Origin: an uncultured Robiginitomaculum sp.
GTDB lineage: Bacteria > Pseudomonadota > Alphaproteobacteria > Caulobacterales > Maricaulaceae
NCBI GenBank assembly: GCA_938001945.1
Contig: CALLBH010000148.1
Location: 1-39,653, forward strand
Length of the DNA: 39,653 nucleotides
Direction: 5' to 3'
The position numbers were made by a program, and so were the translations under genes. Under the pieces are notes generated by a model. The model made no database searches, had not been told where the DNA came from, and was given only the letters and a program-made list of their open reading frames with translations. Shown here one piece after another: positions 24,112 through 31,123 of the stretch (positions are counted from its first letter, which is position 1; each line of letters starts with the position of its first letter).

Positions 24112-25878
24112 ATGCTTCGCCCCTTTATTATTGCTTTTTCTCTTTGCCTCCTCAGCGCTCCGGCGATTGCCCAAGACGATGCCAGCGCTGAATTACTCGA
24201 TAGCCTCATTGCCGATATGCGCGAGGCAAGCTTAGCCAGTGACCCCATTAGCGCCGGTTTTGAGGGCGACACAGAGGCCCGCCGCCGCCTGCCGGATGTG
24301 TCCCCCGATGCAGGCCGCAAAATCTCGCAAGCCGATGCTACATTCCGTTCGCGGCTGGAGTCTATTCCAACGGTGACACTGTCTGATGATGACAAATTAA
24401 ATCATGCTTTGGTGGGCTGGACGCTTTCCCAAAAAGAGCTGATCGGGCCAATCGACAATTCCCGTATTCCGTTCACCAATGATAGCGGGTTTTACAATTC
24501 AATTTCCTACACCGTGCGCAATACGCGTTTCGATAGCGCGCAGGATTATTACGACTATATGGCGCGCCTCAAAGATATGCCGCGCTTCTTTGGGCAACAT
24601 ATGGCCAATATGCGCCGCGGTATTTCCGCCGGCTACACTGCGCCGGCGGAGATTATGCCCGGCGTCGTGACCGGCATTCGCAACATGACCGAAGTCAGCG
24701 CGCAGGAGCATCCGCTTGCCGCGCCGTTCCTGAACGTCAATGCGCGCATTGACGAGATCGAGCGTGCCAAGATCAAAGCGGAAGGCCTAGCCGTAGTTAG
24801 CAAATCAGTGCTTCCGACCTATCAAACGCTGCTGACATTCATGGAAAATGAATATGTGCCTGCGGCGCGCCCCGGCATCGGTCTGTCGACAACACCCGGC
24901 GGACGTGAAAATTATGCCCGCCTCGTCAAATATTATACGACACTAGATATTACGCCCGAAGAAGTTCACCAAATCGGCCTATCAGAGGTCGCCCGCATTC
25001 GCGGCGAGATGGACGCCATTATTGCCGATGTGGGATTTGAAGGCAGCTTTGCTGATTTCCTCAATTTCCTGCGGACAGACCCGCAATTCTACGCAAGCTC
25101 GCGTGAGGACCTCCTCAAAGAAGCCGCCTTTATCGCCAAACGCGCGGACGGTAAAATGCCGGAATTTTTCGGTACGCTCCCGCGCCTGTCATATGGCGTT
25201 ATTCCGGTCCCGCAAGAGATTGAGCAAAACTACACGACGGGCCGTTATTTTGGCGGCAACGCCAAACAAGGCAAAGCCGGTAATTATGTCGTCAATACTT
25301 ATGACTTAAAACAGCGCCCGCTTTATAACCTCCCTGCACTTACGCTGCATGAGGGCGTACCGGGTCATCATCACCAAATCTCACTGGCCGCCGAACAAGA
25401 AGACGTTCCGGAGTTTCGTCAGAATCTGTACCCGCACGCCTTTGGCGAAGGCTGGGGCCTCTACACTGAAAAGCTCGGTGTAGAGATGGGGATATACCGC
25501 ACGCCCTATGAGAACTTTGGCCGCCTGACCTATGAGATGTGGCGCGCCTGCCGGCTCGTTATGGATACGGGCATGCATTATATGGGTTGGAGCCGTGAGC
25601 AAGCCGAAGCCTGCCTCCTCGAGAACAGCGCGCTTTCAACGCATAATGTCAAAACGGAAACGGACCGCTATATTGCATGGCCCGGACAAGCGCTGGCCTA
25701 TAAAATGGGCGAGCTAAAAATCCTCGAGCTGCGCAAGCGCGCCGAAGACAGCTTGGGTGATAAATTCGACATTCGCCGTTTCCACGACGCCGTCCTCGTC
25801 GACGGAGCTGTACCGCTCGGCATCTTAGAGACGCGTATTGATGATTGGATTGCCGCTGAATTGGCAGCTGAGGACTAG
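24112..25878 (+). CDS. DUF885 family protein (M32/M3-like metallopeptidase fold)
   Basis: ORF from 24034; likely start MLRPFIIAFSL at 24112; LHEGVPGHHHQISLAAEQ and FGEGWGLYTEKLG motifs. Confidence 0.9.
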   Translation: MLRPFIIAFSLCLLSAPAIAQDDASAELLDSLIADMREASLASDPISAGFEGDTEARRRLPDVSPDAGRKISQADATFRSRLESIPTVTLSDDDKLNHALVGWTLSQKELIGPIDNSRIPFTNDSGFYNSISYTVRNTRFDSAQDYYDYMARLKDMPRFFGQHMANMRRGISAGYTAPAEIMPGVVTGIRNMTEVSAQEHPLAAPFLNVNARIDEIERAKIKAEGLAVVSKSVLPTYQTLLTFMENEYVPAARPGIGLSTTPGGRENYARLVKYYTTLDITPEEVHQIGLSEVARIRGEMDAIIADVGFEGSFADFLNFLRTDPQFYASSREDLLKEAAFIAKRADGKMPEFFGTLPRLSYGVIPVPQEIEQNYTTGRYFGGNAKQGKAGNYVVNTYDLKQRPLYNLPALTLHEGVPGHHHQISLAAEQEDVPEFRQNLYPHAFGEGWGLYTEKLGVEMGIYRTPYENFGRLTYEMWRACRLVMDTGMHYMGWSREQAEACLLENSALSTHNVKTETDRYIAWPGQALAYKMGELKILELRKRAEDSLGDKFDIRRFHDAVLVDGAVPLGILETRIDDWIAAELAAED

Positions 25879-27350
25879 GCTCGCTTCGCCGCCTGATTTT
25901 CCGGTCGCGCTTCGAGCGCTCCGGCTTCTTCGAGGGCTTTGGTCAATCTATCGCCCAAACCGAAATAGGCGGCCTTGTCATAGAATTTAGGCTTTGCAAT
26001 TCCGGTCGACGCAAAGCGGCCCGTTAAATTTCCACGTTTATCCTCGCCTGTAATTTCATGACGCAGCAAGTCTTGCGTGATGATGATATCCCCATTCATG
26101 CCGATGACTTCGGTGATATGGGTGATACGGCGTGACCCATCGCGAAGGCGAGAGGTTTGAACGATTATGTCGACGCTGCCCGCAATCATTTCGCGGACCG
26201 TCAATATCGGCAAGGCGGCCGTCCCCATCGTAATCATCGTTTCGATGCGGCTTACGGCGTCGCGCGGCGTATTCGCGTGAAGCGTACCCATAGAGCCATC
26301 GTGGCCCGTGTTCATGGCCTGCAACAGATCAAGGGCTTCGGGACCACGTACCTCGCCTACAATGATGCGCTCGGGGCGCATGCGCAGACAATTTTTCATA
26401 AGCGCCGTCATATTCACCCCGCCCTTGCCCTCAATATTGGGTGGACGCGTTTCTAGGCTTACGACATGGGGCTGTTGAAGCTGGAGTTCGGCGGCATCCT
26501 CGAGCGTAATGATACGCTCTCGCCGATCAAAGAACGCCGTCATGCAATTGAGCAAAGTCGTCTTACCCGAGCCTGTACCGCCGCTCACAATGACATTGCA
26601 CTGGCTGGCCGCGATAATGGCGAGCAGCTTTGCGCCGGCAGGACTTATGGAGCCAAAATCAACAAGGTCTCGCAGGCGCAGGCGATCTTTCTTAAATTTA
26701 CGAATGGTGAGCGTCGGCCCTTTAAGCGCCAAAGGCGGCAAAATTACATTGACCCGGCTACCATCGAGCAAGCGCGCATCACATACGGGATTAGAGCTAT
26801 CGACGTGACGTCCAACCTGCGAGACGATACGTTTACAAGTTGCGAGCAAATGCTCGTCATCGCGGAATTGCACATCCGTTTTTTCGACCACGCCTCCGAC
26901 TTCGATGAAAATATTCTTGGGGCCATTGACCATGATGTCGCCAATATCTTGGCGCGCAAGCAAAGGCTCGAGCGGGCCAAAACCAAATAATTCATCACAG
27001 ATTTCAGTCGCAATGCGGCTCTGTTCTGCAGTGGACAGACGAAGCTTTTTAAGCGTGATGATCTCGTGAATAACCTTCGCCATTTCGCGGCGCGCTTTGG
27101 TTTGATCCATGTCCGAAACGGCGGAAATATCCACGGTTTCAAACAAGGCCGCCAGCATAGATTTTTTGGCTTGGATATAAGCTTCTGTTGCGGGCGGCGC
27201 GACAGGAACTTCGCGCAGATCGCTCGCTGTTGGCGCGCGTCCTAGCTTTTCACTATGCTCAAACACATTCCGCGTCGAGGCTTTGCGCGGCAAACGCTGA
27301 ACAGCCGTTGGCGCGCCCATCCGCCTGTCATTGTCATTGCCAAATAGCAT
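25875..27350 (-). CDS. cpaF: CpaF/TadA family secretion ATPase
   Basis: 491 aa; Walker [57 protein letters not shown]. Confidence 0.93.
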
Positions 27351-27469: not shown

Positions 27470-27486
27470 TTATCGTTTATCGATAA
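27470..27486. promoter_or_regulatory. Palindromic operator-like element TTATCG-TTTAT-CGATAA
   Basis: Perfect 6-bp arms, 5-bp centre; inverted near-identical copy at 27515..27531. Confidence 0.6.
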
Positions 27487-27514
27487 TTTTTATTGACTTA
27501 TTTACGCGTCATCC

Positions 27515-27531
27515 TTATTGATAAACAATAA
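27515..27531. promoter_or_regulatory. Palindromic operator-like element TTATTG-ATAAA-CAATAA
   Basis: Perfect 6-bp arms, 5-bp centre; 15/17 match to reverse complement of 27470..27486. Confidence 0.6.
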
Positions 27532-27551
27532 TAACAATGAGAGAGACCCCC

Positions 27552-28229
27552 ATGACACGCACATCCCCCTACATCTTAAGCGCCGCAATCTTATCTGCTG
27601 CGCTCTTCGCTGCGCCGCTAGCCGCCCATGATAAATCCCATAGCGACGAACCGCAGATCACAGAAACGCACGATCTATCCGGTTTCTCGAAAATTCGAAT
27701 TGACGGTGTTTATTTGGTCAATGTCACGCAAGGAGATTCATTTTCTGTCACGACGTCAGGCGACGAGAAAGAAATGAAAAAGAGTAAAGTCGAGCTAAAC
27801 GGAGATACGCTTGTTTTAGGATCAAAAAAGAAAACATGGTCGGGCAATAAGGGCGAGCGTCACGGCATTACCACGACGATTACCCTGCCAATCCTAGAGG
27901 CGATTTCAATTAATGGCGTAAGCGAGTTTACAGGCGACAACCTTAATTTAGGGGATTTGGACCTGAACGTGAACGGCGTGGCCGACATGACCCTGTCGGG
28001 AACATGTGATGATTTAACCGCAAGCATTAACGGCGTTGGGGATATCGACCTCAAAGGCCTTGAATGCGAAACAGGCGACCTGTCGGTCAATGGCGCAGGC
28101 GAAATGAGCGCCTTTACGTCCAAATCCGTAAAAGCGCGCGTCAACGGCGTCGGGGAGATGAAAATTTACGGCGATCCCCAAGATGTCGATAAAAAGAAAA
28201 CGTGGCTCGGCAGCATTACATTGAAGTAG
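27552..28229 (+). CDS. Secreted head GIN domain (DUF2807) protein, beta-helix-like repeats
   Basis: Signal peptide; repeats ISINGVSEF / LNVNGVADM / ASINGVGDI / LSVNGAGEM / ARVNGVGEM. Confidence 0.88.
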   Translation: MTRTSPYILSAAILSAALFAAPLAAHDKSHSDEPQITETHDLSGFSKIRIDGVYLVNVTQGDSFSVTTSGDEKEMKKSKVELNGDTLVLGSKKKTWSGNKGERHGITTTITLPILEAISINGVSEFTGDNLNLGDLDLNVNGVADMTLSGTCDDLTASINGVGDIDLKGLECETGDLSVNGAGEMSAFTSKSVKARVNGVGEMKIYGDPQDVDKKKTWLGSITLK

Positions 28230-28319: not shown

Positions 28320-29060
28320 ATGTCAAAACTAGATCGACGCCTTATGATTGCAGGGCTTTTGAGCCTGCCCCTAAGCGCCACGACAGCCCAAGCCCAGAGC
28401 TTTGATTTAAACGATTTATTCAAAAGCAAAGCGCAAAACTTTTCACTCTCCAATACACAGGCGTCTGATGGCATTCGCGCCGCATTGGAAAAAGGCATCA
28501 CCACAGCGGTGCAAACCGTAGGCCGCGCAGGCGGTTACGCCAACGACTCTGATATCCGCATTCCACTTCCCAAAAATCTGCAATCTGTGCAGCGTTCACT
28601 GCGCATGGTCGGCATGTCCAATATGGTCGATGAACTCGAAGGCGCGCTCAATAGCGGGGCCGAGAAAGCCGCGCCGCTTGCGCTGGATATTTTCCTTGAT
28701 GTGATTATGAATATGAGCGTCACAGATGCCGTTGGCCTTGTTCAAGGCTCCGGTAATGCCGCGACAAATTATCTAAAATCGCAAGCCATGCCCAAGCTCG
28801 TCAAAGCCTTTACGCCTGTTATTAGCGGCGCGCTCTCGCAAACGGGCGCCTATGGCATGATTGATAATATTTCCGGACAGCTCTCTAGCATCCCGTTTAC
28901 GCGTGGATTGGCGGGCGATGCCAAAGAGACCCTCACGGAGCAAGGCGTCGAAGGCGGCCTGAACGGTCTGTTCCATTATGTCGGCAAACAAGAAGCCCAA
29001 ATCCGCAATAACCCTGCAGCGCGCTCTAGCGACATTCTGCGCAGCGTTTTTGGCGGTTAA
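28320..29060 (+). CDS. DUF4197 domain-containing protein (copy 1, cleaved signal peptide)
   Basis: 246 aa; ALEKGITTAVQTVGRAGGYANDSDIRIPLPKNLQSVQ and GLNGLFHYVGKQEAQIRNNPAARSSDIL. Confidence 0.9.
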   Translation: MSKLDRRLMIAGLLSLPLSATTAQAQSFDLNDLFKSKAQNFSLSNTQASDGIRAALEKGITTAVQTVGRAGGYANDSDIRIPLPKNLQSVQRSLRMVGMSNMVDELEGALNSGAEKAAPLALDIFLDVIMNMSVTDAVGLVQGSGNAATNYLKSQAMPKLVKAFTPVISGALSQTGAYGMIDNISGQLSSIPFTRGLAGDAKETLTEQGVEGGLNGLFHYVGKQEAQIRNNPAARSSDILRSVFGG

Positions 29061-29081
29061 GGTCAATTCGGAGGTAATCTT

Positions 29082-29831
29082 GTGACACATAAATTAGATA
29101 GACGCGCCATTTTGGCGGCGCTTGCTGCGCTCCCTTTGACCGCATGCGAAACCCTTGATCCTAATGTCATCGATGGCATTATTCGCGGCACAGGCGGCGG
29201 CGGATTTGGTTTGTCCCAAGCGGACGCTGCGAGCGGCATTCGCGCAGCGCTGAATAAGGGCATTACAACGGCTGTTCAAACGGTGGGCCGCGATGGTGGA
29301 TATTTTAATGACGGACAAATCCGCATTCCTCTGCCCAATACGCTTCAAGACGCGCAGCAAACTTTGCGTCAATTCGGCCTGTCAGGACTGCTTGATGAAA
29401 TCGAGGTGCAGCTTAATCGCGGGGCAGAGAAAGCCGCGCCGCTGGCTCGTGATTTATTTGTTGATGTCATTTCCGGCGTGACGATTACGGACGCGATCAA
29501 TATTGTGCGCGGCGCAGACAATGCGGCGACGCAATATTTGGCCGACAGAACCCTGCCCCGTCTGACTGATATGTTCACGCCAATCATAGACCAAGCCCTG
29601 GCGGGAACAGGCGCATATCAACTCGTAGATAATTTAACGTCTCAATTACGCCAAGTCCCCTTTGCCCCGCAGCTTGCGGCGGATGCCAAAACGGATCTCA
29701 CCCGCAAAGGCGTTGAAGGCGGTCTGGGCGGGCTCTTTCACTATATCGGAAAACAAGAAGCCGCGATCCGCGCGAACCCGGCTGAACGCACAAGCGAAAT
29801 CCTACAGCGCGTCTTTGGAGCATATGTATAA
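29082..29831 (+). CDS. DUF4197 domain-containing protein (copy 2, lipoprotein)
   Basis: 249 aa; GTG start; lipobox ALPLTACETL; paralogue of the preceding gene. Confidence 0.9.
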   Translation: MTHKLDRRAILAALAALPLTACETLDPNVIDGIIRGTGGGGFGLSQADAASGIRAALNKGITTAVQTVGRDGGYFNDGQIRIPLPNTLQDAQQTLRQFGLSGLLDEIEVQLNRGAEKAAPLARDLFVDVISGVTITDAINIVRGADNAATQYLADRTLPRLTDMFTPIIDQALAGTGAYQLVDNLTSQLRQVPFAPQLAADAKTDLTRKGVEGGLGGLFHYIGKQEAAIRANPAERTSEILQRVFGAYV

Positions 29832-31123
29832 TGAAAAAAATTCTGGCCGGCGCCGCGAGCGCAATTTTACTGACCGCCTGTAGCGCGGCTGAAAACTCGC
29901 AAGACGAGGCTATGCCAGAAAGCACATTTGATACAGCCATTATGGACGGCGTTCTGAAAAATGCCGTCGACACAGGACAAACCAAAGGCGTGTCCGCTGT
30001 GGTTTATGAAGACGGCGTAAAAGTTTACCAAGGCGCCTTCGGTTTGCGCGATGCTGAGAACAACCTACCCGTCAATGAAGACACGGTATTTCGCATTTAC
30101 TCCATGACCAAGCCGATCACATCGACGATCATCATGCAGATGGTTGAAGAAGGCAAAATCAAGCTCAGCGATCCTGCCTCAAAATACATTCCGCAAATCG
30201 GCCAAATGATGGCCTTTGAAGGCATGAGTGAAGACGGCATGCCCAAATTTGCACCCCAAGCCCGCCCGATTACGGTCGAAGATTTAATGCTCCACACATC
30301 AGGCATTGGTTACGGCATTTTTGGTGATATTACGCCGCTCGCCACGATGTATAAAAATGCAGGCCTTTTTAATCCCGACGAAACCATGGCGCAGATGATG
30401 GACAAGCTTCCTGCCCTGCCCCTGATGGCGCAGCCCGGTGAGATTTGGTATTATGGGTATAATATCGATGTGCTTGGCCGTATCGCCGAGACTGTCGACG
30501 GCAAACCACTCGGGGAGGTCATGCAAACCCGCATCTTTGACCCGCTCGGCATGACCAAGACTGGTTTTACTGTCCCAGAGGGCGAAGCGAGCAATTTTGC
30601 CAGCAATTATATGATGACGCCGGATGGATTAGTTCTCGCCGAAGCCGCGCAAGGCAGCCCGTTTCAAACGAAGAACGCCTATCAGTCCGGCGGCGGCGGT
30701 CTTGTCTCGACGCTTGGCGACTATGCCAAATATGGTCAAGCTATGGCCAATGGCGGAGAACTTGACGGCGTGCGCATCCTGAAGGCTGAAACAGTCAAAT
30801 TGATGATGACGAACCATTTGGACGATAGCGTCACATACGCTTTTCCTTGGGATCAAGGCGGCGCTATTCGTTTTGGCTATGGCGGCTCTGTCGCGGTAAA
30901 TGCGAGCGAAGCGCTGACCTGCAAAACAGGCATAGCCAATGGTCAATGGGGCTGGGGCGGCGCGGCGCGCACAGATTTCTTTATCGACCCAGATGCGGGC
31001 TCTATGGGCATCATCATGATGCAGCAATTCGAAGAGCCTGAAACACGGCTTCACGCTGACTTCCGCCGCACAGTTTGGATGCAAACCCGCAACACGAACA
31101 AAGCGTGGTGCGCCGAAGAATAG
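29831..31123 (+). CDS. Serine hydrolase, beta-lactamase class C / penicillin-binding-like lipoprotein
   Basis: 430 aa; lipobox LLTACSAA, SMTKPITSTI (SxxK), YGYNIDVLG; TAATG overlap with DUF4197 copy 2. Confidence 0.9.
   Translation: MKKILAGAASAILLTACSAAENSQDEAMPESTFDTAIMDGVLKNAVDTGQTKGVSAVVYEDGVKVYQGAFGLRDAENNLPVNEDTVFRIYSMTKPITSTIIMQMVEEGKIKLSDPASKYIPQIGQMMAFEGMSEDGMPKFAPQARPITVEDLMLHTSGIGYGIFGDITPLATMYKNAGLFNPDETMAQMMDKLPALPLMAQPGEIWYYGYNIDVLGRIAETVDGKPLGEVMQTRIFDPLGMTKTGFTVPEGEASNFASNYMMTPDGLVLAEAAQGSPFQTKNAYQSGGGGLVSTLGDYAKYGQAMANGGELDGVRILKAETVKLMMTNHLDDSVTYAFPWDQGGAIRFGYGGSVAVNASEALTCKTGIANGQWGWGGAARTDFFIDPDAGSMGIIMMQQFEEPETRLHADFRRTVWMQTRNTNKAWCAEE

Follow-up and report, generated by a model that had tools for sequence, protein, structure and literature searches.

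Two short palindromes flank a likely promoter upstream of a putative gene for a secreted DUF2807 (head-GIN) protein in an uncultured Robiginitomaculum sp., which raises the question of which protein reads them and what else that protein controls. The operators O1 (TTATCGTTTATCGATAA, 27470–27486) and O2 (TTATTGATAAACAATAA, 27515–27531), both unstranded, were located to the base in the window, i.e. the whole stretch of 39,653 nucleotides that was analysed. As described in the original prediction, the 6-bp arms are perfect in both, 15/17 positions agree once one of the two is reverse-complemented, and the centres (27478 and 27523) are 45 bp apart, with the −35 hexamer TTGACT (27493–27498, plus strand) between them. 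A gap of 6 nt separates the end of O1 from the −35 hexamer, and one of 16 nt separates the hexamer from the start of O2. The putatively regulated gene (27552–28229, plus strand) encodes a protein of 225 aa (Pfam PF10988, E=3e-30) and probably starts at the ATG at 27552 and not at the in-frame ATG at 27537, since the former is favoured by the signal peptide MTRTSPYILSAAILSAALFAAPLAA and by an RBS-like AGAGAG. The divergent neighbour (25875–27350) encodes a T2SSE/CpaF-like secretion ATPase (PF00437, E=6.5e-61), and the DUF2807 gene is followed by two tandem DUF4197 genes (28320–29831; PF13852, E=1.6e-60 and 1.8e-62) and then by a gene for a beta-lactamase-fold protein (29831–31123).

The arrangement is conserved at DUF2807 orthologues. 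When the protein was searched against 60 relatives and the DNA upstream of the matches was read, both palindromes were found in the same place in 10 of the 12 orthologues from the same family (E below 1e-28), in some cases with one mismatch; the remaining two keep one palindrome each, O1 in L017 and O2 in L020, such that each operator is kept in 11/12. Orthologues from a different family of the order (L015, L018, L019) have no such palindromes. Sites and −35 geometry are kept at a protein identity of 32–58%, and an artefact of shared neighbours is ruled out, since the orthologues do not have the same genes upstream. In all 11 paired promoters, including that of the window, the −35 hexamer reads TTGAC[ATG] and lies 4–6 nt from O1, while the gap between the −35 and O2, counted on the sequences, is 16 nt in 10 promoters and 15 nt in one. 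This fixed distance suggests that the left arm of O2 supplies the −10 (TATTGA, 27516–27521, plus strand, with a 17-bp spacer), so that O2 and the promoter would be locked together, as one would expect for the site of a repressor. The palindromes are real and conserved, and most likely serve as binding sites of a small DNA-binding protein. An FNR/CRP-type site (TTGAT-N4-ATCAA) was rejected, as O2 reads TTGAT-AAAC-AATAA and O1 has no such half-site, and so was the alternative dyad TTATCGATAA (27477–27486, inside O1) as the unit, as relatives keep the 17-bp form instead.

Palindromes of the 6+5+6 form with any sequence occur 18 times in the window, so that a single one is ordinary, whereas two of them within an intergenic stretch of 201 bp arose in 0.06% of base shuffles. 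A search of the 2.13-Mb genome of the window found the exact pattern TTATYG-N5-CRATAA at four places, two of which are O1 and O2, compared with no occurrence of the reversed control pattern. Across 61 genomes of the order the exact pattern was found 195 times, vs 20 for the reversed control, and within the window's family 146 times vs 14. With a position-specific scoring matrix trained on the family sites, O1 and O2 included, the two operators rank first and second in the window with 26.9 bits each, followed by a next-best score of 7.7 bits.

The spacing of the sites is also restricted. When all distinct site pairs within 120 bp were tallied, the distances clustered at 20–22 and 42–48 bp, with 14 pairs at 44–45 bp, and these pairs come from DUF2807 promoters and from promoters of the DUF2975–HTH_26 gene pair described below alike (e.g. 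in Gluconobacter, Opitutaceae and a sphingomonad). A separation of about two or four DNA turns supports cooperative binding on the same face of the DNA. The original prediction had envisaged a cooperative repressor or looping site. Conservation in orthologues, quantised spacing and the position of O2 over the likely −10 speak for the cooperative repressor; a long-range loop is not needed, because pairs at two or four turns fit side-by-side cooperative binding.

To define the targets, the genes next to the sites were read and assigned to Pfam families. Besides DUF2807, one recurrent target in the window's family is an operon encoding an OEP/NodT lipoprotein, an HlyD-type MFP and an RND pump, with a site in the window's genome (C48:11924), in G002, G003, G004, G005, G006, G010, G023 and G031, and also in G049 from another family of the order; the efflux promoter in the window's genome keeps only the O1-type site. 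Further targets are an S9 prolyl oligopeptidase (G005, G006), UrcA-like small secreted proteins named by eye with no Pfam match (G023, G031), LRAT-domain proteins (G023, with similar ORFs in G031 and G049), an M16-like peptidase, also named by eye, and an ABC exporter. The twin-operator layout recurs before the S9 peptidase and the UrcA-like proteins with a distance of 47–48 bp (G005:C3:196956 and 197003, corresponding to L118:15457 and 15504; G023:C19:3214/3262; G031:C9:58730/58777). One further target is an operon that encodes a membrane protein of the DUF2975 family together with a small regulator of the HTH_26 family (L071, L075).

This last target offers a candidate for the binder. The regulators of the DUF2975-partnered type have a length of ~73 aa and are present in 54/61 relatives. 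Many family members have the site ahead of the DUF2975 gene, and in more distant paralogues (G008, G045, G049) it is located 500–600 bp upstream. The window's genome encodes such a pair on C203, with a regulator (C203:7754-8041, minus strand) that scores 81 bits against PF13443 (cutoff 22, E=7.2e-23) and an adjoining DUF2975 gene (L116:3976-4668; PF11188, E=1.4e-8). The regulators have the segment ANLSILKTGKA in common, part of which served as a search criterion. From a genome collection, 80 regulator loci of many phyla were gathered with peptide patterns that included the putative recognition helix, and are thus not a random sample of HTH_26 proteins; 31/80 carry the exact site within 1 kb upstream of the regulator and 52/80 a site with at most one mismatch. 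At the same loci, the control with the reversed pattern gave 0 exact matches and 1 with at most one mismatch, and dinucleotide shuffles gave averages of 0 and 0.8, respectively. Outside Alphaproteobacteria, the exact site is found at 21/38 loci and a site with at most one mismatch at 29/38, including loci of Bacillus, Trichococcus, Clostridium, Spirosoma, Pontibacter, Meiothermus, a planctomycete and Opitutae. Roughly one in three of the 80 operons, mainly from Caulobacteraceae and relatives, lacks a site within one mismatch. Twelve genomes from the locus set were scanned completely, 10 of them distant ones with an exact site by the operon; in 8/10 of these, the DUF2975–HTH_26 operon holds the only exact sites of the genome, and 11/16 exact sites in all are located at this operon. 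We therefore propose with good confidence that the binder of O1 and O2 is an HTH_26 (YozG-type XRE) protein partnered with DUF2975, which adds a regulator family and a multi-gene regulon to the original prediction.

The operons that lack a site leave some room for a different transcription factor, for which the DUF2975–HTH_26 operon would be one more target. No recognisable site precedes the operon in the window's genome and in congeners G002 and G005 (L116, L119, L097; the best PSSM score upstream in L116 is −0.9 bits vs at least 23 bits for the training sites), though other targets keep their sites and the regulator keeps the same helix. Autoregulation therefore seems to have been lost in the window's lineage; congeners G003 and G004 keep the operator at the operon. 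G023 has seven sites, yet no regulator of the HTH_26–DUF2975 type was detected in this genome; such a regulator is present in the sister genome G035, and the missing gene may be due to a contig gap. However, the link between site and operon spans Bacillus, Clostridium, Bacteroidetes, Meiothermus, a planctomycete, Opitutae and Alphaproteobacteria, and the site of the operon is often the sole one in its genome. A different reader is unlikely, since there is no reason to expect another factor to accompany the operon through so many phyla. The simplest reading is that the HTH_26 protein regulates its own operon, in which case it would also read O1 and O2.

The HTH_26 protein could bind as an activator instead of a repressor, with O1 as the activator site, as O1 borders the −35 on its upstream side and is the only site kept by L017 and by the efflux promoter of the window's genome. 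This is quite unlikely, given that 10/11 paired promoters have O2 on the likely −10 at a constant distance, that L020 keeps only O2, and that the autoregulatory sites elsewhere often lie 20–60 bp from the start codon. Finally, an origin of the palindromes in chance or in the structure of a promoter rich in AT, for instance a hairpin in the mRNA or a local bend, is barely credible: single palindromes of this form are indeed common, but arms, spacing and register are alike across genera, the site also occurs at unrelated promoters, and both the conservation and the reversed-pattern control in the 61 genomes already contradict it.

Repression by the HTH_26 protein, to which we assign a probability of roughly 80%, would proceed as follows; the sites, their conservation and geometry, the genes that they precede and their association with the HTH_26 gene in the genomes are observed, and binding, repression, cooperativity and the signal are inferred. 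The repressor would be a small HTH_26 (YozG-like) protein of the Cro/C1 type that is encoded alongside a DUF2975 membrane protein. One dimer would occupy O1 and another O2, both on the same DNA face and separated by about four helical turns. With O2 hiding the −10 and O1 flanking the −35, RNA polymerase would be kept off the DUF2807 promoter. Repression would probably be relieved by the DUF2975 partner, which may sense the state of the membrane, in analogy, and only in analogy, to CylR1 and CylR2. In distant bacteria the protein would be a local autoregulator, because in most of those examined the site is found only before the gene pair itself, while in the alphaproteobacterial family of the window the regulon would have expanded to envelope genes (RND efflux, DUF2807, S9 peptidase, UrcA-like and LRAT proteins). 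More tentatively, with odds that we put a little short of even, DUF2975–HTH_26 could be an undescribed membrane-to-DNA switch that uses one operator code across phyla (TTATYG-N5-CRATAA, with dimers at two or four turns), by descent or transfer, and that turned from a local autoregulator into an envelope and efflux regulator in Robiginitomaculaceae-like bacteria, before its own site was lost in the window's lineage.

The predicted structure of the HTH_26 protein (pLDDT 78) matches the folds of CylR2, VanUg, SinR and 434 Cro. Dyad operators at helical multiples that overlap the −35 and −10 and are read by Cro/C1-type HTH proteins are familiar from lambda CI/Cro; lambda has three operators ~two turns apart, whereas there are two here, ~four turns apart, and, unlike in lambda, the 73-aa HTH_26 protein has no oligomerisation domain. 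The gene pair is of the same kind as yozG/yoaS in B. subtilis, with a small Xre regulator and a membrane protein, YoaS, which we take to be a DUF2975 protein. A YoaS-like “membrane protein, likely permease” is counted 32 times among xre neighbours, in a section that deals with gene neighbourhood only and mentions neither an operator or regulon nor any connection with DUF2807 or efflux (Makarova et al., 2009; PMC2701414). CylR2 of Enterococcus faecalis is a small XRE repressor that is released by the membrane protein CylR1 (PMC5454873). The pairing of a small XRE regulator with a membrane protein is the same, and the fold match to CylR2 (2xiu) has an E-value of 4.6e-4 and TM scores of 0.77/0.85, but the identity to the HTH_26 protein is only 18–20% and the target of CylR2 is the cytolysin operon. 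By analogy, the DUF2975 neighbour suggests a CylR1-like release of the repressor. VanUg (3tyr), a regulator of vanG glycopeptide resistance, is the only sequence relative found in the PDB (E=0.0024) and is among the best fold matches, with 34% identity; the HTH_26 proteins far miss the NCBIfam VanU cutoff, with 23–32 bits vs 150.

The operator is likely new: no published description of TTATYG-N5-CRATAA was found in a search that had subscription papers and regulatory databases outside its scope, six forms of the site sequence were not mentioned in the literature searched, and DUF2975 and B. subtilis yozG were scarcely mentioned there. While XRE repressors with a membrane partner are already known as a kind, the operator code across phyla would be new. 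A widespread and essentially unstudied pair of regulator and membrane protein thereby gains a DNA site and a list of targets, DUF2975 and DUF2807 are tied to RND efflux in these alphaproteobacteria, and the functions of DUF2975 and head-GIN proteins become testable with one reporter.

Outside the window's family but within the order, a radA-like gene is also directly preceded by an exact site (L084, G049:C1:3016931). In three DUF2807 promoters (L007, L013 and L020), the operator is adjoined by a second palindrome that resembles CGACAATTGTCG (ACGACGTTTGTCGT, CGACACTTGTCG); it is positioned upstream of O1 in L007 and L013 and may be the site of another regulator.
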